Assembly (NCBI GenBank): GCA_030611205.1
Contig: JAUWQF010000011.1
Location: 1-32,149 of the forward strand
Direction of reading: 5' to 3'
Source of the DNA: Methanothrix sp.
Lineage (GTDB): Archaea; Halobacteriota; Methanosarcinia; Methanotrichales; Methanotrichaceae
DNA length: 32,149 nucleotides
Shown in pieces: positions 2,579 to 31,514 of the stretch (the first letter of the stretch is position 1; every line of letters starts with the position of its first letter). Both the position numbers and the translations under genes were made by a program. Under the pieces are notes generated by a model. That model was not told the origin of the DNA. It was given only the letters and a program-made list of their open reading frames with translations, and ran no database searches.

Positions 2579-2817
2579 TTTGCCACCTATTAACCCATCG
2601 GCCAGCCGGTCCAGCAATAGCACCTCACAGAGACCAGAACCGCCGGAGTAATACAGATCATCCGATATGTATGCAAACAACCCCTTGGTTTATAACATTA
2701 TCGGTAGATGTATTATAAAATATGACATAAGTTGACAAAATACTTACAGGATGAACGCAACCGGGGTGAAGAGAACGAGAGCCCGCCTCATCGTCCCAAT
2801 TGCCGGTATAAAATCAA
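2579..2817 (-). promoter_or_regulatory. Promoter and leader of SBP1 (repeat copy A)
   Basis: This gene-free stretch is one of three near-identical upstream regions, the others being before SBP2 and before the SBP at 22311. On the minus strand it carries a dyad with TTTATAA-type arms (about 2691-2721 on the plus strand) that doubles as a TATA-like element. An about 110-base leader then runs to GGTGGCAAA just before the ATG. The leader keeps a codable stretch beginning DDLYYSGGSGLC. This copy has drifted from the perfect dyad seen in copy C. The sequence shows the repeat and dyad; an operator role is inferred. Confidence 0.5.
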
Positions 2818-4146: not shown

Positions 4147-4317
4147 GTTATTCCCATCTGAAAAAATCGATGTGGTAGTTTTTGATCCAGTTTTAGCTAT
4201 GTTCATTTGCCATGCCTTCTTACCTAAATAATGAAAAGAGGAGGAAAACCCTCCAAACAAACTTTCTCGTTTTTCTGCATTGCTCTTGTGTCTCATTACA
4301 CATTCTGGTGCCTTATA

Positions 4318-5631: not shown

Positions 5632-5857
5632 TTTGCCACCTCTTAATCCAGCAGCCAGCAGTAACACCTCACAGAGACCAGAACCGCTGGAGTAATACAG
5701 ATCATCCAATATGTACACAAACAGCAGCTTGGTTTATAACATTGTCGGTAGTTGTATTATAAAATATGACTCAATCTAACAAAATACATACACAATGAAC
5801 GCAATCCGGGTGAAAAGAACAAGAGCCCGCCTCATCGCCCCAATTGCCGGTATAAAA
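5632..5857 (-). promoter_or_regulatory. Promoter and leader of SBP2 (repeat copy B)
   Basis: The second copy of the shared upstream region. It holds the same drifted TTTATAA dyad (about 5732-5762) and leader as copy A and is likewise preceded by a cobN 3' end. A TATA-like run lies within the dyad, so a repressor or activator bound there could control transcription. The role is inferred from conservation among the copies and not shown directly. Confidence 0.45.
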
Positions 5858-7826: not shown

Positions 7827-8639
7827 CTAATACTGAACAAGACTCCCGTCCATCTTTGCTCTCTTGACCGCGTACGTGAACGACAGTAAACCCAGAGGCA
7901 CCAGCACAACCGAGAATATAGAGAGAGCGATTATCTCCGGAGCCAAGGCTGAAAGCGAGTAGCCCTGCAGAAGCGCATGCCTCATCCCGCTCAGCGAGTA
8001 CGTGATCGGCAGAATATGCGAGATTGTCTGGAGCCACTCAGGTAACACGGAAATTGGAAAGAGCACTCCGCCAAAGAGTTCGGATGTGCTCATAAAAAAC
8101 ATGTTGATCGGGTCGCCTCTCTTGAGTACCATGATGAAACTTGCAGAGATTATGCCAATGCTGCCGAAGCATATTATCGTCAGAACGAGGATGATCAGAG
8201 CAGCAAAGATATTTGCATTACTCATGTCCACACCCAGCAAAATACCGATCAAAAGATACATCAAAACTCTGAAAGACATGAAGATAAAACTCCAGAGAGA
8301 GGATAACGTTACTATTGCTGAGGTATCGGTCGGGGTCACGAGCATTGCTTCCAGTGTGCCCATCATCTGCTCACCCCGGATGCTTTCTGAAAAACTCCTG
8401 AGCGCAGTCATCAGATACCCTGAAAAGGCTATGCCTATCAGCACAAAGGAGAAATAGTCCCCACCATACGGCTCAAGATGCGCCATTCCCGCACCCCCGA
8501 CCAGTTTGGAAACAAAGTAGAAGGTAATAACCGAGAAGAGTATGAAGAAGAATCGCAGGAAGAACTCGAACTTATAGCTTGTTGCAAGTACCAGATCTCT
8601 TGTTATGAAGGAAAACGCTTTTTTGGTTAAAATCTTAAT
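7827..8639 (-). CDS. ABC-2 type transporter permease (DrrB/NodJ-like)
   Basis: An about 270-residue membrane protein with six hydrophobic segments, partner of the ATPase upstream. The N-terminal region (AFSFITRDLVLATSYKFEFF and the helix after it) is typical of the family. The middle carries EQMMGTLEAMLVTP and the late FGGVLFPISVLPEW motif. An ATG exists only at 8486, which would cut off the first helix. The homologous frame continues upstream to about 8639 and overlaps the ATPase stop by about 13 bases. No ATG, GTG or TTG lies there: either ATT at 8639 or 8633 is used, or a run of seven G just upstream hides an indel. Such pairs export lipids, drugs or polysaccharide; the substrate is unknown. 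Confidence 0.75.
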   Translation of the reverse strand: MKILTKKAFSFITRDLVLATSYKFEFFLRFFFILFSVITFYFVSKLVGGAGMAHLEPYGGDYFSFVLIGIAFSGYLMTALRSFSESIRGEQMMGTLEAMLVTPTDTSAIVTLSSLWSFIFMSFRVLMYLLIGILLGVDMSNANIFAALIILVLTIICFGSIGIISASFIMVLKRGDPINMFFMSTSELFGGVLFPISVLPEWLQTISHILPITYSLSGMRHALLQGYSLSALAPEIIALSIFSVVLVPLGLLSFTYAVKRAKMDGSLVQY

Positions 8640-9547
8640 CCCCCCCTTCTGCCTCCACGAAACCCACGCATCACTCCTCTACGTCCCGAGTAAGCCCGCT
8701 TTGGTGCTACTTCCTTGAACTCCTTGCCCGTGTAATGCAGGAAGACATCATTCAATCCGGGGTCTGGTTTGTCAAGCGCATCTTTTAGTCCTTCTAACGT
8801 TCCGATCACCTTTATTCTGCCCTCATCAATAATTGCAATCCTGTCGCACAACTCTTCTGCCTCAGGAAGGTTGTGTGTGGATAGAAAAACGGTCTTTCCC
8901 TCGTCCCCTATGATATGCTCTTTGATAAACCCTCTCAAATTCTGTGCCGCGCCCGGGTCCAGAGCCTTGGTTGGTTCATCCATAAACAGAACCGCGGGAT
9001 CGTTCAATAATCCACGTGCAATAGCCATCCGTTGTTTCATTCCAGCGGAATAACTGAGAAACTCATCATCTGCCCTGTCCTTCAAGCCAACGAGACTCAA
9101 TAGCTCATCTATCCGCACTTCCGCATCATTGGAATAGTAATTGTGAAGAGAGGCAAAGAATTTAAGGTTCTGTCTTCCGGTCAGCCGCCAATAGAAGCTT
9201 CGTTCATCAGAAGTAATGAAACCGATCGATCTCCTGACCTTCCCGCTATCCTTTACGAGGTCATACCCGTTTATGTGAGCGGTTCCTTCTGATGGCAAAA
9301 TCAGTGTGCATAACATCTTTATGAGTGTGGTCTTGCCAGCGCCATTCGGTCCGAGAATACCAAACAGCTCGCCTTTCTCGATCTTGATGTTCACCTCTTC
9401 AACGGCTGTTATCTCATCCTTTCTGAATGGATGCAGGAAAAAGTCGGTAAATCCCTTCTGCAGTCCGAACTTCTTTGTCAGTTCGCAAGTCTCAATTGTG
9501 TATCTCAATATATCATCCTTTCCTGATCGTTGTCTTGATGGATCCAA
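8627..9547 (-). CDS. ABC-2 exporter ATP-binding protein (DrrA/NodI/CcmA-like)
   Basis: A 306-residue ATPase. Walker A is GPNGAGKTT near residue 68, the signature is LSYSAGMKQRMAIARG near 163, and Walker B is VLFMDEPT near 185, followed by a D-loop (KALDPGAA) and an H-loop (STHNLPEAEE). The signature YSAGM and the insertion after EEVNIKIEKGE are usual in polysaccharide/drug exporter ATPases rather than in BtuD. The last about 30 residues are basic and glycine-rich (GRRGVMRGFRGGRRGGLRF). This tail is atypical and may reflect a frame change at the adjacent G-run. It forms a two-gene unit with the overlapping permease, inserted among fragments of the B12-type system. Confidence 0.88.
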   Translation of the reverse strand: MDPSRQRSGKDDILRYTIETCELTKKFGLQKGFTDFFLHPFRKDEITAVEEVNIKIEKGELFGILGPNGAGKTTLIKMLCTLILPSEGTAHINGYDLVKDSGKVRRSIGFITSDERSFYWRLTGRQNLKFFASLHNYYSNDAEVRIDELLSLVGLKDRADDEFLSYSAGMKQRMAIARGLLNDPAVLFMDEPTKALDPGAAQNLRGFIKEHIIGDEGKTVFLSTHNLPEAEELCDRIAIIDEGRIKVIGTLEGLKDALDKPDPGLNDVFLHYTGKEFKEVAPKRAYSGRRGVMRGFRGGRRGGLRF

Positions 9548-10014: not shown

Positions 10015-10887
10015 TCAAACGTCTCCTGTCAGATTTGAACCAGTCTCCTCTCTTTCCCTCAAGAGAACCTCTATCTCTTCGTTTATCCCATCGAGTTCGT
10101 CATCCGAGAGTGGGTCAGGCATAACCCGATCCTCATTCTCGCAGATGGCAGTAGCGAGGTATCTGAACGTATCTGCGATCTCCGAGTCAGGTACATACTC
10201 GATCACAGTCTTGCGGTGCAACTCAGCCCTTGGTATGAGTATGCTCATCGGGACTCTTCCCAGCACCTTCGTACCCAATCTCGCTGCGAAGCCATCGATT
10301 ATCGACGGTTCATCAACCACACTCCTGCCGTTGTAGATGATTCCGCCGAGGGTTACCGCACCACGGTCTGCGAACCGTTTTATGCATTTGCAGATGTTGT
10401 TTGCGGCATAGATCGCCATGGGATCGCAGGTTGTTACGATGTAGACATCGTCAGCCAGACCCTGTCGGAGAGGCATCGCAAACCCGCCGCAGACAACATC
10501 GCCAAGCACATCGTATATCACGGTATCAGGCTTGATGTCATCGAATACACCAATACGGTCGAGCATATCCACAGCGGTTATCACTCCACGCCCGGCACAG
10601 CCAACACCCGGTTCCGGTCCGCCAGCTTCGATGCAGTGAACACCATTGAAGCCTTTGAAGACGACATCGTCCAGCTTCATCCTATCAGGTCCCTCTGTCC
10701 GGAAGAGATCGAGCACGGTTGGAAGCCTCTTGCCGACCAGATTCCGGGTCATGTCAGACTTCGGGTCACAGCCCATCACCATGATCGTCTCACCGTTCTC
10801 TGCCAGAGCCGCGGCAATGTTTGAGACGATCGTGGATTTGCCGATCCCACCTTTTCCGTATACGCAGAATTTTCTCATTTCATTCAT
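10015..10887 (-). CDS. NifH-like reductase ATPase of a nitrogenase-like complex
   Basis: A 290-residue P-loop iron protein. The Walker A/deviant P-loop is [18 protein letters not shown] at the N-terminus. Switch I carries [11 protein letters not shown]. The two cysteines that bind the bridging 4Fe-4S cluster are in GVGCAGRG (with the Arg that is ADP-ribosylated in NifH) and [11 protein letters not shown]. By family it passes electrons with ATP hydrolysis to a two-subunit component 1. The start overlaps the K-like stop (TGAATG), giving tight coupling in a D-K-H operon. It could serve a tetrapyrrole reductase (compare BchX, BchL, CfbC) or an unknown reductase. Nothing suggests true nitrogen fixation, because neither component 1 keeps the cofactor ligands and nifENB are absent here. 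Confidence 0.9.
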
Positions 10888-12008
10888 CCATAACTCATAA
10901 CAGTGTTAATTATCGCCTCAGTCAGGCAGACAGCACCTCTGAAACCTGCGTAGGGTGCATCATCATATACACAGACATTATCAAAGACAGGATAACAGAA
11001 CCTTATCAGGGGAATATCAAGCGTCCTAGCAATATTCTGCTCAAAGCTGCTTCCGAAAAGGATTGTCGTGTTTGAGTTCCTGACTCCTTCCTCGAATTCA
11101 AAGTAATCGTCCACATTTCTGGCAGAGACCTCGACGTTGAAGCCAAGCTCCCAGTTCAGGAAGTTTGCCATCGCTTCTGCATGGAAATCGCCGATTATTG
11201 AGACCGGGGTTCCGTAGAGTTCATGCAGATATAAGTATACCTTCTTGAACGGTTCGATATCGAACTCCGGCTCATGCCCTGTGCCAAGTTCTTCTGATAT
11301 TGCGCTGGTGAGCTGCGTTGTGCCTTCAAGTCCGTAAGGATACTCCATCTCGAGATATGGCACACCGAACTCTATCTTCATATGCTCTGCAAGCTTACTT
11401 CCCTGCCCGAGTACCACGTTCAGCTCTGCCGCTGGCGCTTTTTTGAACTGCTCCAGACTGCATTTCGATATCACAGAGTTCACTTCCACGCCTGCATCGC
11501 GGAGCAATCGTTTGATCTCTTTCACGTCCGCATCGACCTTGAAGTCATCAGGAGAGAAGCCAATCAGATTGACAGAGTTTTCAATCATATCAGATTCATT
11601 CATCAGCCCTGCCAGATGGGTGAGTGCTTCTTCGTATCCATCCCTCATCGAGCCCTTGAAGCCAGCAGCTTCCATCCACATCACTTCCGCGTCGAGCGTT
11701 ACAGAGTTCACGACCGCCCCAACGTCATCGCCTATGATCGAAGGGGCATCGCCCGCTATGACCAGTAGAATAGGGGTATCGTACAGCTCGTCCGCCCGTA
11801 TCAATGCTTCACGCAGTGCGTCTTCACCACCGAAGACTATCTCTCGTTCGTGCATGACAGTGCAGGCATGTCTCATATCGAACTGATTTGAGGTGGTCTT
11901 GAAGATCGCAGCGCCCCAGTTACATCCAACAGGGACATGATTGAGCACCACTGCATCAGTTATTCCAGAAGATGCCCGGAATGCACCAAAGAATTTACCG
12001 CCGTCCAT
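10884..12008 (-). CDS. Nitrogenase-like component 1, K-type subunit
   Basis: A 374-residue NifD/NifK-superfamily protein. It retains the [10 protein letters not shown] cysteine (residue 29) at the position of the second P-cluster cysteine, and a further cysteine at 49. At the position of the third P-cluster cysteine (before IIGDD) it has aspartate 87. The short N-terminus lacks the first cysteine. The Cys-to-Asp change recalls the mixed Cys/Asp cluster of protochlorophyllide reductase. I prefer ATG 12008, which has GTGAT five bases upstream, over the GTG at 12017. The gene overlaps the D-like gene by about 14 bases and the NifH-like gene by 4. It probably forms a heterotetramer with the D-type subunit. 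Confidence 0.85.
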
Positions 12009-13581
12009 TGTTATCACATCCTTCGCTCTTCATGCTCCACATCCCGGACCACATCTCTCTCGATGCCGAGCATCGGTTATCATCAAGCATGGGGTAGTAG
12101 ATTTTATCATAGTTGAACCTGGAGATTATGGGTTCTCGATGATTCTGACCTGTCTTTCCGGTATTCAGTTCACGGTTGAGATACTTTCCGAACACAACGA
12201 TTCCGGAAAAACCGGTTCGGAAGAGGAGGTATCTCGTGGCAGAGATGTCTGTCACCCCGACTCCACCGCCCTTTTCGTAGATGGGTGGTGTTATGCGATC
12301 GCTCAGGACGTGGTCAACCTTCTTTGCAATTTCCGACATCTCATCGAGTGTCGGGTTCGTTATGACCTCAAATTTCAGGTCCCATTCCTCGAACGCTTCC
12401 TGCATGTTCGTAATCATGACCTCGATCGTTTCCTCAGATATGTTGAGAGCCTTCAGAAGCTGCATATCCACGCAGAGGTATTTTATCGGGAGTTTTAGAT
12501 CGGTTGCATAGATTCTTGCAAGATATGGAGTAAAGAAGAACCCCTGAGTCGAAACAGCGAAATCATCCCTTGCAAATATATTCCGGTATTTCTCAAGTTC
12601 CTGGAGAGATTGCGTCTTCTCTCTTCTGATCGCATCATCTGCTTCTCCATCTAGACCCAGTTTCGATGCTGCATCGTGGTAGAACTTCTCAACACCGTCG
12701 AGACCAAAGTAGAAGAACCATTTCCGGATATAGTCGTTTCCGAATCTCGCCTTCATCCGCTCTGCCCAGCGCAGGTTCCGGGTTACGATGTTGAGTTCTG
12801 CGGCAGGAGCACGTTTTATCTCTTCGACGGTACACGTCGGAAGTGTCAGATTCACACTGACCCCCATCGCACCGAAGATGTGTTTGATCTCCCGAAGCTC
12901 GCTTCTGAATCCGTAAGTGAATCTGCCAAAGGACTCGATGTTCACAAGATTCTCAACGATCTCCTGCTCCTCCATCAGTTGATCCACGATCGAGAACATT
13001 ACCTCCTCATGCCCGCAGCCCCGCAGATCGTACGCCGGAGATCTCGAAGGATCCTTCCACGATTCCGCATAGTCTCGCATAATCATATCGAGCGACTCCC
13101 TGCTCCGATGTGCGAAGCCCTCTGACGGGACATGCAGAAGATCGCAGGGGAGATCGAGTTCTGTGATGACTCCTGAAACGTCATCGCCGACCAGACCCGA
13201 GACGCATGTCGGAAGGACAGCGATCAATGACGGATGGAACCGGCGATAGACCTCGTTGATATTATCTCGCAGCTTATCCTCTCCGCCGTAGATTACATCA
13301 TTCTCGTTTAGATCCGTGCATGGCAGATTGTAGATCGGTGCATACATCTTGCGTGGCGTCAATCGCTGGTGAAAAGCACAGCCACTCGGTCCGTGTATGA
13401 GCGGTATTGCGCCCTCGATCTCTGATACCGCGTAGACGGAGCCAGAGAGCTTACAGTTTATTCCGTAACGGTGAAACTGCCACGTTGTGCCCTGGTGAAT
13501 GCCGTTGAATACGCGATCACGGAATATCTCACGGAGCGGACTTCCATCATCATTTGCCATATCGTGTTTGCTCATTTCCAT
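11995..13581 (-). CDS. Nitrogenase-like component 1, D-type subunit
   Basis: A 528-residue NifD-superfamily protein, first in a D-K-H operon. P-cluster-type cysteines are present at 43 (GINCKLSG), 68 (IHGPSGCAFHQR) and 126 (VLPTCVSGLVGDD), with an extra one at 88. The FeMo-cofactor cysteine of NifD is replaced (LNIVTRNLRW), and I see no counterpart of the cofactor histidine. A cofactor-free reductase is therefore likely, as in ring-reducing enzymes for chlorophyll or F430. Having separate D and K subunits sets it apart from the two-gene CfbC/CfbD F430 reductase. A frameshifted SBP gene lies about 105 bases upstream and an HmdB-like gene precedes that, so the set may be part of a longer operon. 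Confidence 0.88.
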   Translation of the reverse strand: MEMSKHDMANDDGSPLREIFRDRVFNGIHQGTTWQFHRYGINCKLSGSVYAVSEIEGAIPLIHGPSGCAFHQRLTPRKMYAPIYNLPCTDLNENDVIYGGEDKLRDNINEVYRRFHPSLIAVLPTCVSGLVGDDVSGVITELDLPCDLLHVPSEGFAHRSRESLDMIMRDYAESWKDPSRSPAYDLRGCGHEEVMFSIVDQLMEEQEIVENLVNIESFGRFTYGFRSELREIKHIFGAMGVSVNLTLPTCTVEEIKRAPAAELNIVTRNLRWAERMKARFGNDYIRKWFFYFGLDGVEKFYHDAASKLGLDGEADDAIRREKTQSLQELEKYRNIFARDDFAVSTQGFFFTPYLARIYATDLKLPIKYLCVDMQLLKALNISEETIEVMITNMQEAFEEWDLKFEVITNPTLDEMSEIAKKVDHVLSDRITPPIYEKGGGVGVTDISATRYLLFRTGFSGIVVFGKYLNRELNTGKTGQNHREPIISRFNYDKIYYPMLDDNRCSASREMWSGMWSMKSEGCDNNGRR

Positions 13582-13628
13582 ATTTATATTACCCTTTTGT
13601 TTTTGGTTATTGAATTCATGGAAAATGT

Positions 13629-13660
13629 GAAAGGGGGGGCAGGAAACTTTCCCCCGTTTT
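13629..13660 (-). terminator. Possible GC hairpin between SBP3 and the D-like gene
   Basis: A run of seven G (13633-13639) can pair with a run of five C (13651-13655) around an about 11-base loop. A T-rich stretch (CATCTTTTTT on the plus strand) lies beside it. On the minus strand the U-run would precede the hairpin, so it is not a classic terminator for SBP3. It may only modulate read-through or protect the downstream D-K-H message. Confidence 0.25.
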
Positions 13661-13686
13661 CATCTTTTTTGTTGATCTCGTTCATA

Positions 13687-14963
13687 TCAGCTCGGTTCTG
13701 GATACACGAAAACACCATGCTCGTCCAGATCGTAGTCCAGTCCCTGGAACTCTGTCAGATATTCCCGATGGATCGCCTGTGGATCTAGGTCCTCGAAGAG
13801 TTCGGGATGGAACCACTTTGCCATGTATGCGGTGCCTATGAGACAGCCTGATCCGCCTGTCGCAATATCCAGAAACGCCATCATGTAAACATTCCCGGTC
13901 TTCACTGCAGTGACCTCAGCCAATTCAGGACGGTTCATGATATCCTCTCTTGCTGCTGCCATCTCGCCAGAGGCATCCGTACCATAACCGCTGGAGATGT
14001 AGCTACTATATTGTGCAACGATGATCTCGGGATTCTGCGTCACCACCCATTCAGCATCTACTATGGGCCAGGTGCCTAACAGACCCTCAGCCATGTCTCG
14101 TCCGCCAGCTATATCACCCATCTGATGTATTCTACCGGTTTCGTGAATGGTCCTGTAATCTCCTCCCGGTTGGAAGAAGCTCCAGTGGAATACTTTTGGC
14201 TTCTCATCCTCCGAAAGCACCTCTGTACGAGATCTGATCTCATCTGTCCAGCCCTCATGCCAGTTGATGTACTCGGAAGCCTCTTCTTCCTTGTCGACGA
14301 TGTACCCGAGTAATCTCACCCTTTCCGTGAAGCCCTCTGGATTTCTCAGGTTCATACCAATGATCATTACGCCCGGAAGTTTCTCCTCATCCATGTATGC
14401 AGGACCTTTTACAAACGCCAGGAAAAGATCAGGATCCAGACTGAGTATCGCTTCGTAGTCCAGTCCTGGGCCCATCCACTGACCTATGACTGGCAGCTTG
14501 CTGAGCTCCGGAAAGAGAACATCCGCATCCTTGATGTGTGTGCCAACACCAACGATCTTATCCTCCGCATCGATTGATCGCAGTACCTCAGTGGAAGGAG
14601 CCATCAGGACAACGATACGTTCCACTGGCTTTTCAATGGTTATAATTTCAGGCGGTGCCGGTTGAAGCACCTCGGTGGGGGCTATAAAGGTGAGTTCCTG
14701 CTCCTCCCCGCGTATGATCAACTCTATCTGGGTTATGTCATCCTCATCAATTTCGCCGTCGTAATTAGCATCTGCCAGCTCGGTAGCTTCGTTTGTTCCC
14801 TCGATTATGCCCTCTACATATGCTATATCATCCTCATCTATCGTATCATCCATGTTCGCGTTCCCGAAGATGCCCACAGCGCGTAATCAGATGCACTCGC
14901 GGGCATAACAGCCAGCGACATGCACAACATCATCACTACCAATGCACAGACCATTCGCCTCAT
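13687..14963 (-). pseudogene. Dockerin-bearing substrate-binding protein, frameshifted after the signal peptide (SBP3)
   Basis: The signal peptide is encoded from ATG 14963 (MRRMVCALVVMMLC, ending MPASASDYAL). A 2-base insertion near 14874-14880, CTGTGGGC where sister genes have CTGGGC, then throws the dockerin and ligand domain out of frame. Removing two bases gives a 424-residue protein: dockerin calcium loops (NANMDDTIDEDD; DANYDGEIDEDD), a PF01497-type domain with EKPVERIVVLMAPSTEVLRS, and the usual GVFVYPEPS end. The main frame is undamaged, so the lesion is recent, a slippage-prone switch or an assembly error. Without correction the product would start at 14877 and stay in the cytoplasm. 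Its start is five bases after the HmdB-like stop. Confidence 0.8.
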
Positions 14964-14967
14964 TTTA

Positions 14968-16029
14968 TCACTCATATTTGTCAGCTATTTTGGGTTCAAC
15001 TTCCATTCCAGCCCCAGTAATGAATCTCACGGTTGTTGGAAGTAAATTTACAAAGTCTAACATATCATTGATATGTTTTACTTCTGCACTTGTTGTAGGC
15101 CACCTCGAACCATCCCTTACTCTGTGTACTGATGCACCAGCATGGACGACTCTGTTGACTCCAGCCATTATCCAGAGTGGAATGTGTTCGTATCCACTGA
15201 TATGGATGTCAATATCTCGAAAAATCAAACGTGCGATTGCAGCAGTTTTTGCCGCCTCCAGTGGCGAAGCCGGTGGATGGTTAGCCATCGGAGTTCCAGG
15301 ACCCGGATGGAACCATGTGCATAGGAAATACTTGAAATTTTCGAACTGTTTCAGGTAAAACATGTGATCTACGCGGTCATCATAGGATTCTCCCAGTCCA
15401 CTCATTAGCACACTGTTTAATCTCAGTCCTGTATCGTTTATCATGTTAGCAAGTTTTTTTCTTGCATCCAGGTCATCTCCGGGTTTTACTTTTCTAAATA
15501 ACTCTTCATTAAGCGGGTTAACTTCGAAAGAGCTTGTTACATCTACCCCCCCTAAGTTCTTTAATTCCTTTAATGTGTCTTCAGAAAGTGCGGGACCAAC
15601 ATTCACCCAAATATCAAGGTTGGTCGCTCTTTTCACTGCTTTGACGGCTTCAATAACTTTTTCTCCACCATCTCCTACTATTGTTCCGCCACCAAGCTCT
15701 GTCATGCTTATTCCTGCTTCCTCTATCAATCTGGCACCTTCAACTATCTCATCAATGGTCAGAACATTCTCGGGTCCAAAACCAGAGCTGTTTATAGTGC
15801 TCGAATGCCCACAGTATCTGCATGGCGGATCAACAGTGCAGTGCGTAATTAAGCCTATAAAGCCATCCAGCTTAAACACATTCCCAGTTTCGTCATCCCG
15901 TACCCTGCTTGCAAGTTCAAACAGTTTCAATGCTTTGTCATATCTGCCTGTTTCTTTAAACAGATACAGTGCCTCTTCTCTTGTTATCTCACTACTTTCT
16001 GCATTTTTCAATACTTCTTCAAATATCAT
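14968..16029 (-). CDS. HmdB-like radical SAM enzyme (BioB/HydE/PylB superfamily)
   Basis: A 353-residue radical SAM protein. The cluster motif is CTVDPPCRYC, cysteines 64, 70 and 73, a CX5CX2C spacing instead of the usual CX3CX2C. That spacing is known from HmdB, which acts in FeGP-cofactor assembly for Hmd hydrogenase. A GGGT-like SAM-binding motif follows (ELGGGTIVGDGGE). The C-terminal half (HPGPGTPMANHPPAS and later SGYEHIPLWIMAGVNRVVHA) resembles the biotin-synthase/HydE barrel end. A GGAGGG site lies 8 bases before the ATG. No hmd, hmdC or other FeGP gene is in the window, and it lies between SBP genes and the nitrogenase-like operon. A role in modifying a tetrapyrrole or other imported cofactor is possible. 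Confidence 0.82.
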   Translation of the reverse strand: MIFEEVLKNAESSEITREEALYLFKETGRYDKALKLFELASRVRDDETGNVFKLDGFIGLITHCTVDPPCRYCGHSSTINSSGFGPENVLTIDEIVEGARLIEEAGISMTELGGGTIVGDGGEKVIEAVKAVKRATNLDIWVNVGPALSEDTLKELKNLGGVDVTSSFEVNPLNEELFRKVKPGDDLDARKKLANMINDTGLRLNSVLMSGLGESYDDRVDHMFYLKQFENFKYFLCTWFHPGPGTPMANHPPASPLEAAKTAAIARLIFRDIDIHISGYEHIPLWIMAGVNRVVHAGASVHRVRDGSRWPTTSAEVKHINDMLDFVNLLPTTVRFITGAGMEVEPKIADKYE

Positions 16030-16101
16030 TTTTATCCCTCCTGTTGCTATGTTATCTCACTGTTCGTTCCTATGCATTCTACTGCTACCATTCGGTTCCT
16101 C

Positions 16102-17385
16102 CTATTCCGGTTCTGGATAGACGAAAACGCCTTGCGTATCTAAGTCAATGTCCAATCCCTGGAATCTTGTCAGATATTCATGATGAATCGCTTTTGGATC
16201 TAAATCTTCGAACATCTCTGGATGGAACCACTTTGCCATGTATACAGTTTGAAGAAAGCCTCTACATCCACTGGCGGGCCCGTAACAAAGGATATAACCA
16301 CTGATTACGTAAACATCCCCTTCTTTTACAGCCTTCACACTCTCCAATTCAGGCCGACTCATCATTTCATCTCTCATCTCTTCTAACTTTGCTGTATCAC
16401 CTGCATCCAGGTCGTAACCACCACAACTCCCTGATACTTTAACTATAATCTCAGGGTTTTGATCTATTATTGCTTCAGGATTCACAGACCCCATCAAATC
16501 AGGGAAGATGTTCTTGCCACCTGCATTTCCGACGAGTGCACGAGATTCATCAGCAGTACCCCATTTGTTGCTGCCCTCAAAGTATACTTTTGGTTTATCG
16601 TCTTCAGGAATCTCATCCACCACCTCTTCGATCGAGTTCATAATATCCTCATACCAATCAATGAATTCCTCGGCTTCGTCCTGCTTATCAAAGACATATC
16701 CAAGCTTTTCTAATTCTTCACATATATCATTCCCCCATACACCCCCATATACACGAATCACTGTAATGCCAGCGGATTCTAACACATTTTGGGCATTATC
16801 GAGCGTTGGATCGCCACCCAAAGGTTTAGCTATTAACATGACCACATCCGGACGTAGGCTCAATATTACTTCACAATTAGGCTCCCATATCAATCCAACT
16901 GTTGGTTTATCTTGATACTCTGGGAAGAATACTTTATAATTAACTCCATACGGTGGCCCTCCTGATGATTGGACAAGACTTTCTACACCGACTACTTGAT
17001 TCTCCTCTACTCCAATCGATCGTACCATTCCAAGAGCTTGGCGGAACGTGACAACAATCCCATCCACCGGCTTATTCACAGTTATCGTTCTGTCAGCAGA
17101 ATCGATCAACGTGAGCTCCTTCTCATCTCCACGTATGATCTGCTCGATCTGGACGATATCATCCTCATCGATCCCGCCATCATAATTAGCATCAGCCAGC
17201 TCAGTCTCTTCATTCGTTCCCTCGATTATGCCCTCTACATACGCTATGTCATCCTCATCTATGGTGTCATCCATATTCGCGTTCCCGAAGATGCCAAGCG
17301 TGTAATCAGATGCGACCGAAGGCATTACCGCCAGTGTTGACGATAGAAGAAGCATCATCAGCAAAAAATTTGTAGATCTTTTCAT
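16102..17385 (-). CDS. Dockerin-bearing substrate-binding protein (SBP4)
   Basis: A 427-residue exported binding protein, last of five head-to-tail SBP genes. The signal peptide (about 1-26, ending PSVAS) is followed by a dockerin module with loops at about 34-45 and 64-75 (DANYDGGIDEDD). The PF01497-type ligand domain opens with DRTITVNKPVDGIVVTFRQA. The normally basic residue before the first strand (PVxRIV) is replaced by PVDGIV, so ligand or partner contacts may differ. The protein ends FQGLDIDLDTQGVFVYPEPE. Its ATG directly follows the TGA of SBP5, and the Shine-Dalgarno site is made by the last SBP5 codons. The HmdB-like gene begins 72 bases downstream. Confidence 0.9.
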   Translation of the reverse strand: MKRSTNFLLMMLLLSSTLAVMPSVASDYTLGIFGNANMDDTIDEDDIAYVEGIIEGTNEETELADANYDGGIDEDDIVQIEQIIRGDEKELTLIDSADRTITVNKPVDGIVVTFRQALGMVRSIGVEENQVVGVESLVQSSGGPPYGVNYKVFFPEYQDKPTVGLIWEPNCEVILSLRPDVVMLIAKPLGGDPTLDNAQNVLESAGITVIRVYGGVWGNDICEELEKLGYVFDKQDEAEEFIDWYEDIMNSIEEVVDEIPEDDKPKVYFEGSNKWGTADESRALVGNAGGKNIFPDLMGSVNPEAIIDQNPEIIVKVSGSCGGYDLDAGDTAKLEEMRDEMMSRPELESVKAVKEGDVYVISGYILCYGPASGCRGFLQTVYMAKWFHPEMFEDLDPKAIHHEYLTRFQGLDIDLDTQGVFVYPEPE

Positions 17386-18642
17386 TCAGCTCTCCTCCAT
17401 CGGCGGGTAGACAAACACGCCGTGTTCGTCAAGATCATAATCCAGTCCCTGGAATCTGGTCAGGTACTCCTGATGGATCGCCTGTGGGTCCAAATCCTCG
17501 AATAAGTCGGGGCGTAACCATTTTGCCATATATGCTATGGCTATGAAATGCTTTCCACCTGTAAGCTCTTTGATCATTACGTAAACTCTTTCATCCTTCA
17601 CTGCTGAGACGTTCGCCAACTCGGGGCGTTCCGCTATCTCGTCCCTTATATCTTTTAGCCACGTTACGTCGTCTACATTATAGCCATACTTGCCTCTGGC
17701 ATATCCCTGCTTAACTATAATCTCCGGGTTACGCACCATGACCTCTTCTCGGTCTATAACTTTATAGCCAGAAATGTCATCGAAAATGTTCTTGCCGCCT
17801 GCCACCTCCACAATTTGATGAAGTGCGGTCCCCTCTCCACCGATCTTGTAGGGTTCACCAAAACCTTCAAAGTAGACTCTTGTTTTTTTATCCTCGGGAA
17901 TTTCCTCCACACTCTCTTTGATATCATTCGAGTACCCTTCGTAGAATTCAAAGAAATCCTCTGCTTCATCCTCTTTATCAAAGATGTATCCCAGTTTGTT
18001 TACCTCTTCAAGATAATTTTCTGGTTTGAAGCAGTCAAGACGAACCACTGTGATGGAGGCATCTTCAAGCCTTTTTTGAACTTCATCACAAGATGCTTCG
18101 AAGTGTGTTGCATATAGAAATACAGCATCCGGGTCCAGCTCTATTATTTTTTCGATGTCCGGAGACCATCCAGAGCCTGCACTCGGATAGTCCTTGAACT
18201 CCGGGAAAAAATTTTCCTTCCCGATCGTACTCTTTGATACACAGATTATATTCTCTTTTTCCAGCTTGAGAGAACGCATCGCCTCCAGGGTATTCCAGTT
18301 GAGTACAACGACCTTCTCCAGTGGCTTATCTATTGTAACAGTACTTCCTACTGTATCTATGATCGTAAGCTCCTTCTCCTCCCCACTTATGATCTGCTCG
18401 ATCCGGGTTATGTCATCCGCATCAACTTCGCCATCATAATCGGCATCTGCCAGCTCAGTACGTTCGTTTGTTCCATCGATTATCCCTTCTACATATGCTA
18501 TGTCGTCCTCGTCTATGGTATCATCCATGTTTGCGTTACCAAAGACGTCAAGCGTGTAACCGGCTGCAGCTGCTGGTATGATCGCCAGCGGCGCACATGA
18601 TGCGAGAAGCATCACAAGCACAAAAACGATTGATGTTCTCAT
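17386..18642 (-). CDS. Dockerin-bearing substrate-binding protein (SBP5)
   Basis: A 418-residue exported binding protein. The signal peptide (about 1-27) contains LLASCAP, which looks like a lipobox, but the sister proteins lack it and an AAAA|GY cleavage is equally possible. Dockerin loops lie at about 35-46 and 65-76 (DADYDGEVDADD). The ligand domain opens with GSTVTIDKPLEKVVVLNW, with a lysine-rich N-lobe (LKLEKENIICVSKSTIG). It ends GVFVYPPMEES; the codons for EES plus the stop read GAGGAGAGCTGA and serve as ribosome binding site for SBP4. The gene starts directly after the SBP6 stop. The ligand is unknown. Confidence 0.9.
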   Translation of the reverse strand: MRTSIVFVLVMLLASCAPLAIIPAAAAGYTLDVFGNANMDDTIDEDDIAYVEGIIDGTNERTELADADYDGEVDADDITRIEQIISGEEKELTIIDTVGSTVTIDKPLEKVVVLNWNTLEAMRSLKLEKENIICVSKSTIGKENFFPEFKDYPSAGSGWSPDIEKIIELDPDAVFLYATHFEASCDEVQKRLEDASITVVRLDCFKPENYLEEVNKLGYIFDKEDEAEDFFEFYEGYSNDIKESVEEIPEDKKTRVYFEGFGEPYKIGGEGTALHQIVEVAGGKNIFDDISGYKVIDREEVMVRNPEIIVKQGYARGKYGYNVDDVTWLKDIRDEIAERPELANVSAVKDERVYVMIKELTGGKHFIAIAYMAKWLRPDLFEDLDPQAIHQEYLTRFQGLDYDLDEHGVFVYPPMEES

Positions 18643-19851
18643 TTAGCTCTCCTCCGGTGGTGGATAGGCATAAATACCCCGATACGGCATGCCCTGAAAT
18701 CGCTCCAGATATTCCTTATTCATTGCTTCTGGATCCAGATCATCGAATAACTCTGGATAGAACCATTTTGCGAGGCATGCGGCGCCGACAAAATATCTTG
18801 GCTTGGATGTGACCTGAATGGATATACAGTAAATTGCTCCATTCTTCACCGCCGTAACATTAGCCAGTTCATCACGGTTCATGATCTTAGCTCTTACCGC
18901 TTCCAGATTTGATGGATCATCGTGTTCATAACCACAGCCTATGCCTGTAAATGTCTGCCCGATAATGATATCAGGATTCTGCTCTGGCATTATCACCCAT
19001 TCAGGGTCTACATCTCTGTATTGATCAAAATCCGCAATATTTATTCCACCCACCATTGTACACAGATCATCAATTCCCACACCATTACCAATTGCCTTGT
19101 ATTCACTCTCATGCGTCCATATGGACTCAAAATACACCTTTGGTTTCTCTTCTTCTGATAGTTTCCCCACTCGCTCCTCGATCTTACTATTAAATTCCTC
19201 ATAGAAGTCGATAACATCTTCGGCCTCATCTTCCTTCTCGAGGATATACCCAAGTTTTCTAAAATCTTCTATCATATACGATGCCTTACTAAAACCCAAC
19301 CGGACCACAACGACATCGGTACCCTCAAGTTGTTCTTCAAGTCTTTCAGGAGGACATGACCCCGCGAATGCGAGGATAATGTCAGGTTCAAGGCTTAATA
19401 CCTTCTCAATGTCTGGCTCGAATCCACTCCCAACATCTGGCACCTTACTCATCACTGGGAAGAATAGAGAATGTTGTTTGGGCAAATAGTTAGGAATACC
19501 AACTACCTTATCCGTTGCTTTAAGCGATCGTATCGCTTCAGCACCATAGGTGCTCAAGACTATAATACGGTTTATCGGCTTGTATATCGTTACCTCCTTT
19601 CCATAAGGAGGATCGCACACAATCGTCCTCGGATAGTTCTCATGTATATGCCTGATCTCTTCCAGCTGATCAGATGTGATCTTTCCATCCTTGTACGACT
19701 GCTCGGCAACCCCCATCTCCTCATCAGAGACGATCTTGTCATCATTGCGATCGCCATGAACCACTACCCCCTGCGCACCGGCAGGCATTACCGCTAGCAG
19801 TGTAGATGATGCAAGAAGCATCATCAGCACAAAAATGGTATATCTTTTCAT
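18643..19851 (-). CDS. Substrate-binding protein with variant EF-hand/dockerin module (SBP6)
   Basis: A 402-residue exported binding protein. The signal peptide (about 1-26, AGA site) precedes a variant calcium module. One canonical 12-residue EF-hand loop is at 34-45 (DRNDDKIVSDEE). A shortened second loop is near 55 (DGKITSDQL), followed by the helix EEIRHIHENYP. This differs from the two-loop dockerins in SBP1-5 and SBP8 and recurs in SBP7 and SBP9. The PF01497-type domain starts near KEVTIYKPINRIIVLSTYGA, with an insert CDPPYG where relatives have DSAGR. It ends GIYAYPPPEES, whose codons again give the Shine-Dalgarno site for the next gene. Start and order were set by tight head-to-tail packing. 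Confidence 0.88.
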   Translation of the reverse strand: MKRYTIFVLMMLLASSTLLAVMPAGAQGVVVHGDRNDDKIVSDEEMGVAEQSYKDGKITSDQLEEIRHIHENYPRTIVCDPPYGKEVTIYKPINRIIVLSTYGAEAIRSLKATDKVVGIPNYLPKQHSLFFPVMSKVPDVGSGFEPDIEKVLSLEPDIILAFAGSCPPERLEEQLEGTDVVVVRLGFSKASYMIEDFRKLGYILEKEDEAEDVIDFYEEFNSKIEERVGKLSEEEKPKVYFESIWTHESEYKAIGNGVGIDDLCTMVGGINIADFDQYRDVDPEWVIMPEQNPDIIIGQTFTGIGCGYEHDDPSNLEAVRAKIMNRDELANVTAVKNGAIYCISIQVTSKPRYFVGAACLAKWFYPELFDDLDPEAMNKEYLERFQGMPYRGIYAYPPPEES

Positions 19852-19854
19852 TCT

Positions 19855-21063
19855 TCACACCTCTGGATAGACAAATACACCCTGCTCGTCCAGGTCATAA
19901 TCCAGCCCCTGGAATCTGGTCAGGTACTCCTGATGGATTGCTTGTGGATCCAGGTCCTCGAATAAGTCGGGGTGGACCCACTTTGCCACGTAGGCAAGTC
20001 CAACGACATTACTCACCCCATTGCAGATATCCGGGGTAATCAGGTAAATCTTGCCATTTTCTACTGCTGTAGTTTTCTCGAAGCCTAGGCGGCTCATAAT
20101 AGTATCTCTTACTGCTTTCATCTCTGTGGGATCATCTTCATCGTAACCACATGAGACTCGACTGCCAGATATACACTTTAATATAATATCAGGATTTTGT
20201 TCTATTAGCCATTCAGGATCTACTGAAGTAGCTGTAGTCTTTCCTGGCGCTATATCTTTAGCAATATTTATTCCGCCAGCCATCGTACATATCAGGTGAG
20301 TTGGAGAACGTTTATTGCGAGCGTTGTAGTCCCCATAGCATTCAATGTATACTCTAGGCTTCTTATCCTCATATATTCCTTCTATTTTTTCACAGATGGT
20401 ATCTATTTCACTCTGGTAAAAACTAACAAGTTCTTCTGCTTTATCTTCTTTTTCGAGAAGATATCCAATCTTTTCAATATCATCACATAACGCATCCGTA
20501 CTACAACAATCCAAACCAAGCAATAGAATCTCAGTACCCTTCAGATCATCTTCAAGTGCTTCTATTGGCGTTATCAACATAGTTCCGTATACAAGTATAA
20601 TGTCAGGAGACAAGCTGAGTATACCTTCGACATCAAGAGAACTATATTTTCCAACATTTGGCGATTTGCTTAAATCTGGGAAATACACCCCATCACTTGC
20701 AATATAATCACTCACTCCAACTATATTATCTTTTGATTCGAGTGCTCGAATAATCTCGGCACCTTTGGAATGTAGGACAATGATACGTTTTATCGGTTTG
20801 TATATCGTCACCTCTCTTCCGGCTGAATCAGTGATCGTCCTCGGATAGTTCTCATGTATATGCCTGATCTCTTCCAGCTGCTCAGATGTGATCTTCCCAT
20901 CCTGATATGACTGCTCAGCAGCAACCATCTCCTCATCAGAGACGATTTTATCGCCGTCAAGATCTCCTGGGACCACGACCCCCTGCGCACCGGCAGGCAT
21001 TACCGCCAGAAGTGTAGACGATGCTAGAAGAACCATCAACATGAAAATGGCAGATATTTTCAT
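19855..21063 (-). CDS. Substrate-binding protein with variant EF-hand/dockerin module (SBP7)
   Basis: A 402-residue exported binding protein. The signal peptide (about 1-26, PAGA) is followed by a single good EF-hand loop at 34-45 (DLDGDKIVSDEE), a degenerate second loop (DGKITSEQL) and the helix EEIRHIHENYP. The ligand domain opens with the textbook DSAGREVTIYKPIKRIIVL. A cysteine cluster (LDCCSTDALCDD) in the middle is not seen in neighbours and may bind metal or form a disulfide. It ends DLDEQGVFVYPEV, and the GAGGTG encoding the last residues is the ribosome binding site for SBP6, three bases further on. It is nearly identical to SBP6 in the first 70 residues but diverges in the ligand-binding part. 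Confidence 0.88.
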   Translation of the reverse strand: MKISAIFMLMVLLASSTLLAVMPAGAQGVVVPGDLDGDKIVSDEEMVAAEQSYQDGKITSEQLEEIRHIHENYPRTITDSAGREVTIYKPIKRIIVLHSKGAEIIRALESKDNIVGVSDYIASDGVYFPDLSKSPNVGKYSSLDVEGILSLSPDIILVYGTMLITPIEALEDDLKGTEILLLGLDCCSTDALCDDIEKIGYLLEKEDKAEELVSFYQSEIDTICEKIEGIYEDKKPRVYIECYGDYNARNKRSPTHLICTMAGGINIAKDIAPGKTTATSVDPEWLIEQNPDIILKCISGSRVSCGYDEDDPTEMKAVRDTIMSRLGFEKTTAVENGKIYLITPDICNGVSNVVGLAYVAKWVHPDLFEDLDPQAIHQEYLTRFQGLDYDLDEQGVFVYPEV

Positions 21064-22311
21064 TCAGCACTCCTCCAGTGGTGGATAGACAAATACGCCG
21101 TGCTCATTCAGGTCGTAATTACATCCAAAGAATTCTGTTAGATATTCCTGATGAATGGTTTGTGGGTCCAAGTCCTCGAATAAGTCAGGATGTAACCACT
21201 TTGCCCAATATGCAAGAAGCACAGGGTAATCAAGCCCGTAGCTGAGATATGAGCTCACTATGTAGACATGTCCCTTCTTCACTGCAGTAACATTAGCTAG
21301 TTCTGGACGATTCATGATTTCGACTCTTAGCGCCTCCGCTTTTGAAGTATCATCCACACCATAGCCCACATCGCCTTTAGGAATATACTTAATAATAATA
21401 TCTGGATTCTTCACCATTACCTCTTCTGGGTCGATGGTAGCGAAGGGACTATGGCTTACTAACTCGGAAAATATATGCCTTCCACCACTTGTGTCAAGCA
21501 ATTGCTGTGCGACAGAGGTACTGGTATAAGTCTTGTAATCACCGCTGCTGCTCTCAACATACACTTTGGGTCTATCTTCTTCTGATAATCCTTGTGTTCG
21601 TGCTTTGATAAGGTCAACGTATTTGTCATGGAAATCTTCGAGGTAATGCTCCGCTTCATCCCTTTTATCAAGGATATACCCAACTTTTACAAGCTGGTCT
21701 ATCGTAATCTCTGGTGTGGAGGATCCAAAACCAATTACTGTAATATCTGGGAGATTCTCATCAAGTTCTGCAGCCTTTGTGCTATATGCAATCACTAAAT
21801 CAGGGTTGAGACTGAGTATGGCCTCGTAGTCTGGAGTATACCAGGACCCGACAGACGGCCGCTCTGTGAGTTCTGGGTGATAGATTTCATATTCTATGCT
21901 ATCCCGTATATTGCTGGAGACACCGACTACTTTATCCTCTGCACCAAGTACTCCCATCAGTTTGGCATCACGATCGACAAGCGGAATGATGCGTGTTATC
22001 GGCTTGTGAACTGTTACAATTCTATCAGCACTATCGATGAGTGTAAGCTCCTTCTCCCCCCCGCTTATGATAAGCTCTATCTGCGTTATGTCCTCCTCAT
22101 CAATTTTGCCATCATAATTAGCATCTGCCAGCTCAGTGCGTTCGTTCGTTCCATCGATTATCCCTTCTACATATGCTATATCATCCTCATCTATGGTGTC
22201 ATCCATGTTGGCGTTCCCGAAGATGCCTAACGTGTAATCAGATGCACCCGCAGGCATGACCGCCAGCGACATGCATGACATCAGCACCAATACACAGACC
22301 ATTCTCCTCAT
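21064..22311 (-). CDS. Dockerin-bearing substrate-binding protein, first gene of the long operon (SBP8)
   Basis: A 415-residue exported binding protein. The signal peptide (about 1-23, PAGA) precedes a dockerin module with loops at about 33-44 and 63-74 (DANYDGKIDEED). The PF01497-type domain opens with DRIVTVHKPITRIIPLVDR. It ends GVFVYPPLEEC, where GAGGAGTGCTGAATG couples to SBP7. The ATG follows GAGGTGGCAAA. The 234-base upstream region holds the best copy of a perfect inverted repeat and the conserved leader. SBP8 is probably the first gene of a minus-strand operon that may continue through the D-K-H set to about 10 kb. Confidence 0.9.
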   Translation of the reverse strand: MRRMVCVLVLMSCMSLAVMPAGASDYTLGIFGNANMDDTIDEDDIAYVEGIIDGTNERTELADANYDGKIDEEDITQIELIISGGEKELTLIDSADRIVTVHKPITRIIPLVDRDAKLMGVLGAEDKVVGVSSNIRDSIEYEIYHPELTERPSVGSWYTPDYEAILSLNPDLVIAYSTKAAELDENLPDITVIGFGSSTPEITIDQLVKVGYILDKRDEAEHYLEDFHDKYVDLIKARTQGLSEEDRPKVYVESSSGDYKTYTSTSVAQQLLDTSGGRHIFSELVSHSPFATIDPEEVMVKNPDIIIKYIPKGDVGYGVDDTSKAEALRVEIMNRPELANVTAVKKGHVYIVSSYLSYGLDYPVLLAYWAKWLHPDLFEDLDPQTIHQEYLTEFFGCNYDLNEHGVFVYPPLEEC

Positions 22312-22545
22312 TTTGCCACCTCATAATCCAGCGCCAGCCGGTCCCGCAGTAGCACCCTACAAAGACCAGAACCGCCGTAGTAATACAGATCATCCAACTT
22401 GTATGTAAACAACCTCCTGGTTTATAACATTATGGATAGATATGTTATAAAATATGACTTGAGCTAATAAAATACTTACAGAATGAACGCAACCGGGGTG
22501 AAGAGAACGAGAGCCCGCCTCATCGCCCCAATTGCCGGTATAAAA
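22312..22545 (-). promoter_or_regulatory. Promoter, operator-like dyad and leader of the SBP8 operon (repeat copy C)
   Basis: The third and best-preserved copy of the shared upstream region. TTTATAACAT (22421-22430) and ATGTTATAAA (22442-22451) form perfect 10-bp arms around an 11-base spacer, overlapping the likely TATA element. From there an about 110-base leader runs to the SBP8 ATG. It contains AGGAGG about 20 bases inside, followed by a possible leader peptide (DDLYYYGGSGLC), which in this copy is out of frame with SBP8 and overlaps its start (AAAATGA). The dyad is visible; control by a metal- or B12-sensing regulator is inferred. Confidence 0.6.
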
Positions 22546-26339: not shown

Positions 26340-26396
26340 TTAGCTTCCCGGTTCCGGGTATACAAACACACCTTGCTCGCCCAAGTTGTCGATCTC
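26340..26396 (-). pseudogene. C-terminal remnant of an SBP gene
   Basis: Eighteen codons reading EIDNLGEQGVFVYPEPGS and stop. GEQGVFVYPEP is the conserved end of the SBPs in this window (DEQGVFVYPE). It starts within the btuD stop and has no start codon or signal of its own. It shows that an SBP gene was once between btuD and cobN, or that the present joint arose by recombination between SBP copies. Confidence 0.7.
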
Positions 26397-27183
26397 ACCC
26401 GGATGCCTTGCCCCCGTTGAGAGATCTTATCGGCACGACATAGGGGGTCTCGAAGCTATCGATCACCACCACCTCGACACCGTAGACCGACCTTACATTT
26501 CCAGATGTGAGCAGGGAGACCGGATCTCCTGTTGCGTAGATCCTGCCCTCCTTCAGCATCACGAGGGTATCGGCGTACCGTGATGCCAGGTTCAGATCGT
26601 GGATGGCCATCACAGCCGAGATATCCGTCTTCCTGACAAGATCACGTATGATCTCCATCACCTCGAGCTGATGTTTCAGATCCAGATTGCTCGTCGGCTC
26701 GTCCAGGAGAAGAACCTCCGGCTCCTGGCAGAGCGCACGGGCGACGAGCACCTTCTGCTTCTGTCCCCCGCTCAGCTCGTTGAAGTCCTTCAGGGCGAAC
26801 TCCTCGATGTTGAGAAGCTCCATAGTCTCCACAACCCTATCTATGTCCTCCTCGGCGACCCGCCAGCCCATATGCGGCCGTCTCCCCATCAGGATGGTAT
26901 CAAAGACCGTTGTCGAGAGGACGCTGGAACTGGACTGGGGGACGTACCCGAGGTACCTTGCGATATCCTGCCTGCCCATCGTCTTGATGTCCCTTCCGTC
27001 CAGGAAGATGCTACCCTTCGGCTTCAGGATCCGGTCGATGCACTTGATGAGCGTCGTTTTGCCGGAGCCGTTCGGCCCGATGAGACCCAGCACCTCGGAG
27101 TCGCCCACGACGATCTCCAGATCATCCAGGATCTTGTTGCTTCCGTAGCTGAAAGAGAGATCCTTTATCTTGATCTTTACCAA
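26395..27183 (-). CDS. btuD: BtuD/FecE-type ABC importer ATPase
   Basis: A 262-residue importer ATPase. Walker A is GPNGSGKTT at residues 36-44, the Q-loop is GYVPQSSSS near 80, and the signature [19 protein letters not shown] lies near 137. Walker B is VLLLDEPTS near 158 and the H-loop [14 protein letters not shown] near 195. These are the standard features of the B12/ferric-chelate class. It overlaps btuC by 7 bases. It is the only intact importer ATPase in the window, against ten SBPs, one more frameshifted copy and one truncated relative. It should energise uptake for several of the receptors. The symbol reflects the family; an iron-chelate or heme substrate is equally possible. Confidence 0.88.
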   Translation of the reverse strand: MVKIKIKDLSFSYGSNKILDDLEIVVGDSEVLGLIGPNGSGKTTLIKCIDRILKPKGSIFLDGRDIKTMGRQDIARYLGYVPQSSSSVLSTTVFDTILMGRRPHMGWRVAEEDIDRVVETMELLNIEEFALKDFNELSGGQKQKVLVARALCQEPEVLLLDEPTSNLDLKHQLEVMEIIRDLVRKTDISAVMAIHDLNLASRYADTLVMLKEGRIYATGDPVSLLTSGNVRSVYGVEVVVIDSFETPYVVPIRSLNGGKASG

Positions 27184-31150: not shown

Positions 31151-31514
31151 GCCCATACCCCACTTAATTACAATAATGTCCTCTACCAGCCACATTATTA
31201 CAGATTATCATTTTACTCATATTAGCTGTCTATATATGAAATGAGCATTCGATTAATTAATAAAGATTACGCTTGAAGTGCTATCATTTGCTCCTCTTGG
31301 AATAATGCCTCCGGATAAGTTCGTATGTTATTATGTACCCGATAAGGAGGCAGGTATTCAACGATCTGTTTTGTTATCGATAGCTGTAACATAATTTGAA
31401 TTAAAATCTATATTAAGTACTTATCTTATTAAATAGATTTTAATTAATTAGTCATACGAAAGATAGATTTATATCATGGAGTGTGAAGATCCTTCATAAG
31501 GTAAGGTGACTAAG
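31151..31514. promoter_or_regulatory. Divergent promoter region of SBP10 and the chlI-like gene
   Basis: On the plus strand a TATA box TTTATAT (31468-31474), preceded by a purine-rich BRE-like ACGAAAG, should start transcription near 31498, and GGTGAC lies 4 bases before the ATG. On the minus strand a CATATATAG element near 31228-31240 should serve SBP10. Two inverted repeats lie between. AATTAAAATCTAT (31399-31411) pairs with 31433-31445 around a 21-base centre that is itself palindromic (TAAGTACTTA). TGCCTCC (31306-31312) pairs with GGAGGCA (31346-31352). The first sits just upstream of the chlI-like TATA and is a good operator candidate. I do not recognise a B12 riboswitch. Confidence 0.6.

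Follow-up and report, generated by a model that had tools for sequence, protein, structure and literature searches.

The 32,149-bp window analysed here, the entire contig JAUWQF010000011.1 of a Methanothrix metagenome-assembled genome (MAG; 2.19 Mb, 95% complete), encodes a nitrogenase-like D–K–H set (D1, K1 and H1) that, judged from its sequences, is a new clade of nitrogenase-like reductases. On balance, D1K1H1 is probably an ATP-driven, FeMo-cofactor-free tetrapyrrole reductase belonging to an uptake, metallation and decoration island; this assignment, like the other functional assignments below, is drawn from protein families, ligand patterns and gene neighbourhood. The set closes a run of ten minus-strand genes, recognized from open reading frames (ORFs) and Pfam matches and extending from 22311 to 10015, in the order of five tandem receptors, a radical S-adenosylmethionine (SAM) enzyme, a sixth receptor, D, K and H. 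Because the window is a whole contig, the island may extend beyond it.

Cluster ligands, fold and phylogeny of the D–K–H proteins

In an alignment with reference sequences from Sulfitobacter and Nitratidesulfovibrio plasmids, the three cluster-ligand positions are occupied by C/C/C in NifD, NifK, BchN and BchY, by none/D/C in BchB, by G/C/S in BchZ and by N/C/C in CfbD. The corresponding residues are C/C/C in D1 and G/C/D in K1, and G/C/C and C/C/C in D2 and K2 of the second set described below, with the last Cys of K2 lying one residue early. The D1 ligands C43, C68 and C126 are invariant and aligned with the Cys residues of NifD, BchN and BchY, and C32 of K1 is aligned with the Cys of BchZ and with the Asp ligand of BchB, so that D1 and K1 together are predicted to form the chlorophyllide-reductase arrangement, three Cys plus one. 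The six-Cys P-cluster site is absent from D1K1, in which K1 keeps one of the three Cys residues and lacks the first and third NifK-type ones, and neither D1 nor D2 has the NifD cofactor ligands C275 and H442 in the alignment, the residues there being Thr or Arg and never His. Membership of D1K1 in the nitrogenases or the Mar enzymes was rejected on account of these absent metallocluster ligands. In H1, both the P-loop and the cluster motifs of the NifH type are intact.

The ten best Protein Data Bank matches of the AlphaFold model of K1 (predicted local distance difference test score 77) are all BchB of DPOR, with template modelling (TM) scores of 0.85–0.86 compared with about 0.78 for NifEN, 0.80 for MarK and 0.75–0.81 for NifK, and the K1 profile aligns to BchB over its whole length. 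The equivalog cutoffs of COR are missed (BchX model, 185.6 bits, cutoff 331.2; BchZ model, 49.3 bits, cutoff 529), as are those of the CfbCD models NF033200 and TIGR03282 (H1, 349 bits, cutoff 402; D1 and K1, 62.9 and 40.3 bits, cutoff 268), and the best NCBIfam match of D1 is the NifE model at 98.6 bits, far below cutoff. In trees, D1 and D2, K1 and K2, and H1 and H2 each pair as sister clades (supports 100/98, 98/92 and 96/94, respectively), indicating that the D–K–H module was duplicated as a whole.

Distribution and conserved neighbourhood

The D–K–H loci were compared with a background of 32 stretches, 397 kb in all, taken from other contigs of this genome and of related ones, leaving out the receptor-rich genomes G201 and G206 (68 and 69 receptors). 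Receptor homologues occur in 22 of the 28 D–K–H loci and in none of the 32 background stretches, a contrast that is indicative and carries no formal probability, the loci being mutually non-independent. Conservation in relatives, which the sequence-only reading of this DNA had named as a check, is borne out for the coupling of receptors with D–K–H by 21 of the 27 loci outside the window. The receptor gene ends 12–21 bp before D in three genomes (G035, G042 and G206), and in another (G026) both receptors that the genome encodes lie on the D–K–H contig. Also recurring around D–K–H are FecCD, the importer ATPase, cobN, methyltransferases, BchU-like Methyltransf_2 proteins, a PPOX-fold protein and ABC-2 exporters.

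A scan for window-type K returned 14 named loci, including those of the Methanosarcinales MAGs UBA203, UBA261 and CSMAG, Methanothrix harundinacea 57_489, Methanosaeta PtaU1.Bin112, Methan_01, an ANME-1 (anaerobic methanotrophic archaea; Methanophagales) MAG, MAGs from Guaymas and a barite site, and a probably misbinned contig that bears the label Thermotogae. Among the 394 genomes of the phylum scanned, the K1/K2 clade is found in Methanotrichaceae and in two families outside the class, and a second family of the same class also carries members; scores within the clade end at 352–375 bits (at least 375 when partial contig-edge genes are set aside), and the next match scores 233.

In ANME-1, as in the other Methanosarcinales family, D1K1H1 is directly followed by D2K2H2; in the present genome D2K2H2 lies on another contig (C148), where it is preceded by genes for BchU-like methyltransferases, an ABC-2 exporter and a PPOX protein. 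A third, more distant D–K–H type is found in Methanotrichaceae (L118, L119, L120 and L121), beside receptors and FecCD or cobN. Separately, two different D-type genes stand in tandem at L117 (G042:C192), L099 and L108, suggesting further D–K–H subtypes.

Gene content of the window

Where the sequence-only reading had counted at least seven tight same-strand joints between 22311 and 10015, we count nine, of −23 to +105 bp: S1/S2 0, S2/S3 3, S3/S4 0, S4/S5 0, S5/radical SAM 72, radical SAM/S6 90 (with the S6 start as listed), S6/D 105, D/K −23 and K/H −4. A single transcript across S1–H1 is plausible. The gene content that it had described, with receptors, a CX5CX2C radical SAM enzyme and D–K–H, also holds, as does the position of cobN directly upstream of S1, followed further upstream by a BtuCD-like importer and two more receptors, all on the minus strand (Table 1).

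Table 1. Features of the 32,149-bp window
Feature	Position	Strand	Remarks
S7, Peripla_BP_2 receptor	30077..31195	-	PF01497 73.8 bits
S8, Peripla_BP_2 receptor	28868..30073	-	PF01497 87.1 bits
FecCD/BtuC-like importer permease	27177..28250	-	PF01032 297.8 bits; best NCBIfam match the BtuC model, below cutoff
Importer ATPase	26395..27183	-	Best model a corrinoid ABC ATPase, below cutoff; 7-bp overlap with permease
CobN/BchH/HmuS-superfamily chelatase (cobN), 1245 aa	22546..26283	-	PF02514 1270 bits; NCBIfam CobN model NF004646 1796 bits (cutoff 1468)
Perfect 9-bp dyad, TTATAACAT-N11-ATGTTATAA	22422..22450		cobN–S1 gap; 0 expected in shuffles
S1, receptor	21064..22311	-	Signal peptide; dockerin-like EF-hand pair
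S2, receptor	19855..21063	-	PF01497 95.1 bits
S3, receptor	18643..19851	-	PF01497 96.8 bits
S4, receptor	17386..18642	-	Dockerin-like EF-hand pair
S5, receptor	16102..17385	-	Dockerin-like EF-hand pair
Radical SAM enzyme, BioB/HydE/PylB/HmdB type	14968..16029	-	CX5CX2C; TIGR03957 201 bits (cutoff 320.9)
S6, frame-shifted receptor	13687..14963	-	Signal peptide 14963 to ~14880; mature-part ORF 13687–14877
D1, nitrogenase component-1-like, 528 aa	11995..13581	-	PF00148 167.9 bits; ligands C43, C68, C126
K1, nitrogenase component-1-like, 377 aa	10884..12017	-	PF00148 219.2 bits; C32
H1, NifH/BchL/BchX-family Fe protein, 290 aa	10015..10887	-	NF009701 450.2 bits (cutoff 350); TIGR01287 405 (cutoff 394)
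ABC-2 exporter ATPase, DrrA-like	8627..9547	-	82–84% identical copies in relatives' islands
ABC-2 exporter membrane subunit	7827..8486	-	PF01061; 89–95% identical copies in relatives' islands
S9, receptor	4318..5718	-	True start probably near 5631
Class I methyltransferase	3319..4296	-	Weak CbiT/CpaM-like scores; homologues in relatives' islands
S10, receptor	1340..2680	-	True start probably near 2578
Class I methyltransferase paralogue	308..1312	-	Homologues in relatives' islands
ChlI/BchI-like AAA+ protein, cut by contig end	31506..32147	+	PF01078 44.5 bits; candidate chelatase partner

The radical SAM protein carries CTVDPPCRYC, a CX5CX2C motif as in HmdB; the label "HmdB-like" stands for the motif, but the TIGR03957 score does not make the protein an HmdB orthologue. 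Its family is present in 12 of 238 genomes of the class and adjoins a receptor of this kind in 11 of 13 loci, the Methanosarcinaceae order being receptor–radical SAM–FecCD–ATPase; the notion that the gene is unique to the window was rejected in view of these homologues. The order radical SAM–receptor–D seen here recurs in one other genome (G042, L117), and most D–K–H loci have no radical SAM gene beside them. The family is linked to the same receptor/FecCD/cobN modules. Another family of archaea has a locus (L145:1495-7057, G187:C44) whose radical SAM protein shares 88% identity with that of the window and is accompanied by a second paralogue and by an ABC-2 exporter 80–86% identical to that of the islands, a sign of transfer.

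Several window receptors combine a signal peptide with paired EF-hand loops, for which the Pfam Dockerin_1 model gives 11–15 bits (cutoff 22.9); dockerin-bearing transport receptors have previously been reported in ANME (PMC9012536). Three cohesin-domain proteins are encoded directly 3′ of D2K2H2 in G026 (L037:1010-4673). Among receptor models, those for ferrichrome-type or PGF-CTERM receptors give the highest scores, all below cutoff. The listed start of S6 is an artefact, the signal peptide being encoded one frame away with a one-base shift relative to the mature part; as this peptide begins at about 14963, the true S6 gene abuts or overlaps the radical SAM stop. The shift may be a real lesion or an assembly error.

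The cobN product spans the full CobN-Mg_chel domain (positions 2–1088 of 1090 of PF02514) and also scores just above the BchH model cutoff (TIGR02025, 835.3 bits, cutoff 829). The CobN superfamily acts on tetrapyrroles in its characterised branches, and the function of the archaeal CobN/ChlH/HmuS homologues is stated to be unclear (PMC12583661). Additional genes in the islands of relatives encode ABC-2 exporters, a PPOX-fold protein and one or two class I methyltransferases, together with two Methyltransf_2 proteins whose highest NCBIfam scores, both with the BchU model, are 55.7 and 50.1 bits (cutoff 276). A ChlI-like AAA+ homologue is present in another type-1 island (L044).

Duplicated segments and horizontal history

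The "strong dyad-containing promoter" of the sequence-only reading does contain the dyad but proves to be one copy of a locally duplicated segment. Further copies lie at 2690–2718 and 5734–5762, since a segment of about 160–300 bp, comprising the cobN 3′ end and the promoter, has been duplicated within the contig, and truncated cobN 3′ remnants (ORFs 2814–3317 and 5858–6241) stand beside the copies. No further copies were found elsewhere in the genome, and a genome-wide operator was rejected, the dyad being confined to the contig and explained by the segment duplication. A fragment at 6905–7470, 92–96% identical to the importer ATPase sequence at 26504–27066, is likely a pseudogene copy.

The GC content of the contig is 0.477, against 0.551 ± 0.013 in the sampled genome. 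By tetranucleotide composition, the D–K–H stretch fits the other Methanosarcinales family better than its own genome (0.87 vs 0.71), the cobN part looks native, and K is 86–90% identical to homologues in that family but only 64–66% identical to those of other members of its own family; from the tetranucleotide profile and these identities, D–K–H was probably acquired horizontally. As the contig as a whole fits its own genome better (r 0.88) than the donor-like family (0.83), simple misbinning was considered unlikely.

Discussion

The remodelling of a tetrapyrrole put forward in the sequence-only reading is favoured by the COR-type ligands, the match of K1 to BchB and the recurrent cobN and BchU-like methyltransferases; the substrate could be a corrinoid, an F430 derivative, heme or a non-tetrapyrrole chelate. 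In the scheme that we propose, in which the region is part of a mobile archaeal island and whose substrate class, step order and direction are inferred, receptors outside the cell, several with dockerin-like tags, would feed the BtuCD-like importer, and the CobN-superfamily chelatase, perhaps with a ChlI-like AAA+ partner, would insert or remove the central metal. H1 would spend ATP and pass low-potential electrons to a D1K1 heterotetramer, predicted to hold one [4Fe–4S] cluster of the chlorophyllide-reductase type with three Cys from D1 and one from K1, which, without a FeMo-type cofactor, would reduce a double bond in the ring of the tetrapyrrole that it binds. The usually adjoining D2K2H2 probably performs a second reduction, by analogy with DPOR and COR, which act in succession. 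The radical SAM enzyme and the methyltransferases would decorate the ring, and the ABC-2 exporters would move the product or a precursor out. Either import followed by remodelling, or synthesis followed by export and recapture, would fit the sequence. Possible but doubtful is the bolder version of the latter, in which methanogens and ANME would possess an as yet undescribed bacteriochlorophyll-like pathway, with two successive nitrogenase-like ring reductions, CobN metallation and decoration by BchU-like and radical SAM enzymes. Its product, a new hydroporphyrin, would leave the cell and be taken up again through an array of scaffold-docked receptors, serving as a cofactor or metal carrier held in common.

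Several observations weigh against assigning D1K1H1 as a tetrapyrrole reductase of such an island. The scores with the BchU, BtuC, CbiT and HmdB models are all under their cutoffs; the model of D1, in which packing is poor (TM about 0.5), matches MarD and NifD best, not BchN; the joins among reference families in the trees rest on long branches; and the island-bearing genome G030 lacks any Peripla_BP_2 receptor, making the link between receptors and D–K–H common but not obligatory. In addition, a cfbC-type Fe protein is missing from both this genome and the one congener included, whereas cfbD is present in each (G000:C44 and G237:C57); in the congener, a solitary H1-type gene adjoins fpo genes (L113:496-1392), without D or K. 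A role of H1 in F430 synthesis, either additional or alternative, is therefore conceivable. We nevertheless regard it as quite unlikely that D–K–H belongs to F430 metabolism, with H1 replacing CfbC as the electron donor to CfbD and D1K1 and D2K2 making F430 variants: most island-bearing relatives also carry cfbC-type genes, the genomes are all incomplete MAGs, D1K1 is a heteromer with a ligand pattern unlike that of CfbD, and F430 synthesis itself needs neither cobN nor outside receptors.

The exporters, receptors, and O-methyltransferase-fold and PPOX proteins also make up a usual layout of a natural-product locus, and the best, though sub-cutoff, scores of the receptors with ferrichrome-type or PGF-CTERM models point the same way. 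The island might accordingly make a secreted, non-tetrapyrrole metal-binding compound, with D–K–H reducing a C=C or C–S bond of the ligand, DrrA-like ABC-2 exporters releasing the product and Peripla_BP_2 receptors recovering its metal complex. This is unlikely in view of the repeated presence of cobN in or beside the islands; moreover, an unsystematic search of the loci showed no genes for backbone synthesis. The 3+1 ligand set, too, is at odds with such a product, as it is found in tetrapyrrole reductases and NifEN. Since NifEN has a 3+1 [4Fe–4S] site as well, and NifE is the best NCBIfam model for D1 though far below cutoff, D1K1 could be imagined as a scaffold that cooperates with the HmdB-like radical SAM enzyme in assembling an iron–sulfur or organometallic cofactor, but the missing NifE/NifD cofactor Cys in D1 and D2 and the lack of an adjoining radical SAM gene at most D–K–H loci render this highly improbable. 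Finally, importers and receptors dominate the locus, and HmuS, a relative of CobN, strips iron from heme anaerobically (PMC12583661); CobN might similarly be a de-chelatase in a pathway that salvages or degrades heme, chlorophyll or corrinoids under anaerobic conditions, with the reductase and the radical SAM enzyme opening or saturating the ring. We consider this very unlikely, since none of the known ring-opening enzymes was found, exporters and methyltransferases are more suited to building than to breaking, and a ChlI-like AAA+ partner is present, as for insertion chelatases.

Comparison with known systems

No description of this cluster was found in the open literature, most subscription papers lying outside the search. 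The HmuS operon of Bacteroidota likewise places a CobN-superfamily protein within a metal-tetrapyrrole uptake locus, but no nitrogenase-like module is described there. In the present islands, by contrast, archaeal CobN homologues are tied by a conserved neighbourhood to a D–K–H clade with the ligand set of tetrapyrrole reductases, and their function thereby becomes testable with defined genes. HmdB shares the CX5CX2C motif and radical SAM subgroup with the window enzyme, which differs in falling below the equivalog cutoff and in its setting within receptor/FecCD/cobN loci. Methylthio-alkane reductase (MarBHDK) and isethionate reductase (IsrBHDK) also have an H–D–K set with a nearby radical SAM gene, that of Isr being BciD-like (PMC11423573), and the poor D1 model has MarD as its best fold match; however, Mar contains nitrogenase metalloclusters (PMC12552129), the ligands for which are lacking in D1K1. 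CfbCD is an archaeal nitrogenase-like tetrapyrrole enzyme of the same hosts, but CfbD is a single subunit and is encoded elsewhere in the same genome.

Parallels are also found in dark-operative protochlorophyllide reductase (DPOR, BchLNB) and chlorophyllide a reductase (COR, BchXYZ). DPOR has the two-component, ATP-driven layout of a tetrapyrrole reductase, and its BchB subunit is nearest to the K1 model, although BchB has an Asp in place of Cys32 of K1, and D1, K1 and H1 score far below the BchB, BchN and BchL cutoffs. COR resembles D1K1H1 in its three subunits, its NifH-family reductase and its 3+1 ligands at the same alignment positions, and on the reference photosynthesis plasmid it also has a CobN/BchH chelatase and a Methyltransf_2-type protein nearby; in contrast, D–K–H forms a separate clade below the BchX and BchZ cutoffs and resides in an importer/receptor island of non-photosynthetic archaea. 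These islands suggest the existence of a ring-shaped metal compound, so far not sought, that methane-cycling archaea take up, modify or share, and the duplication of the whole D–K–H module, here as well, bears on the origin of DPOR and COR.

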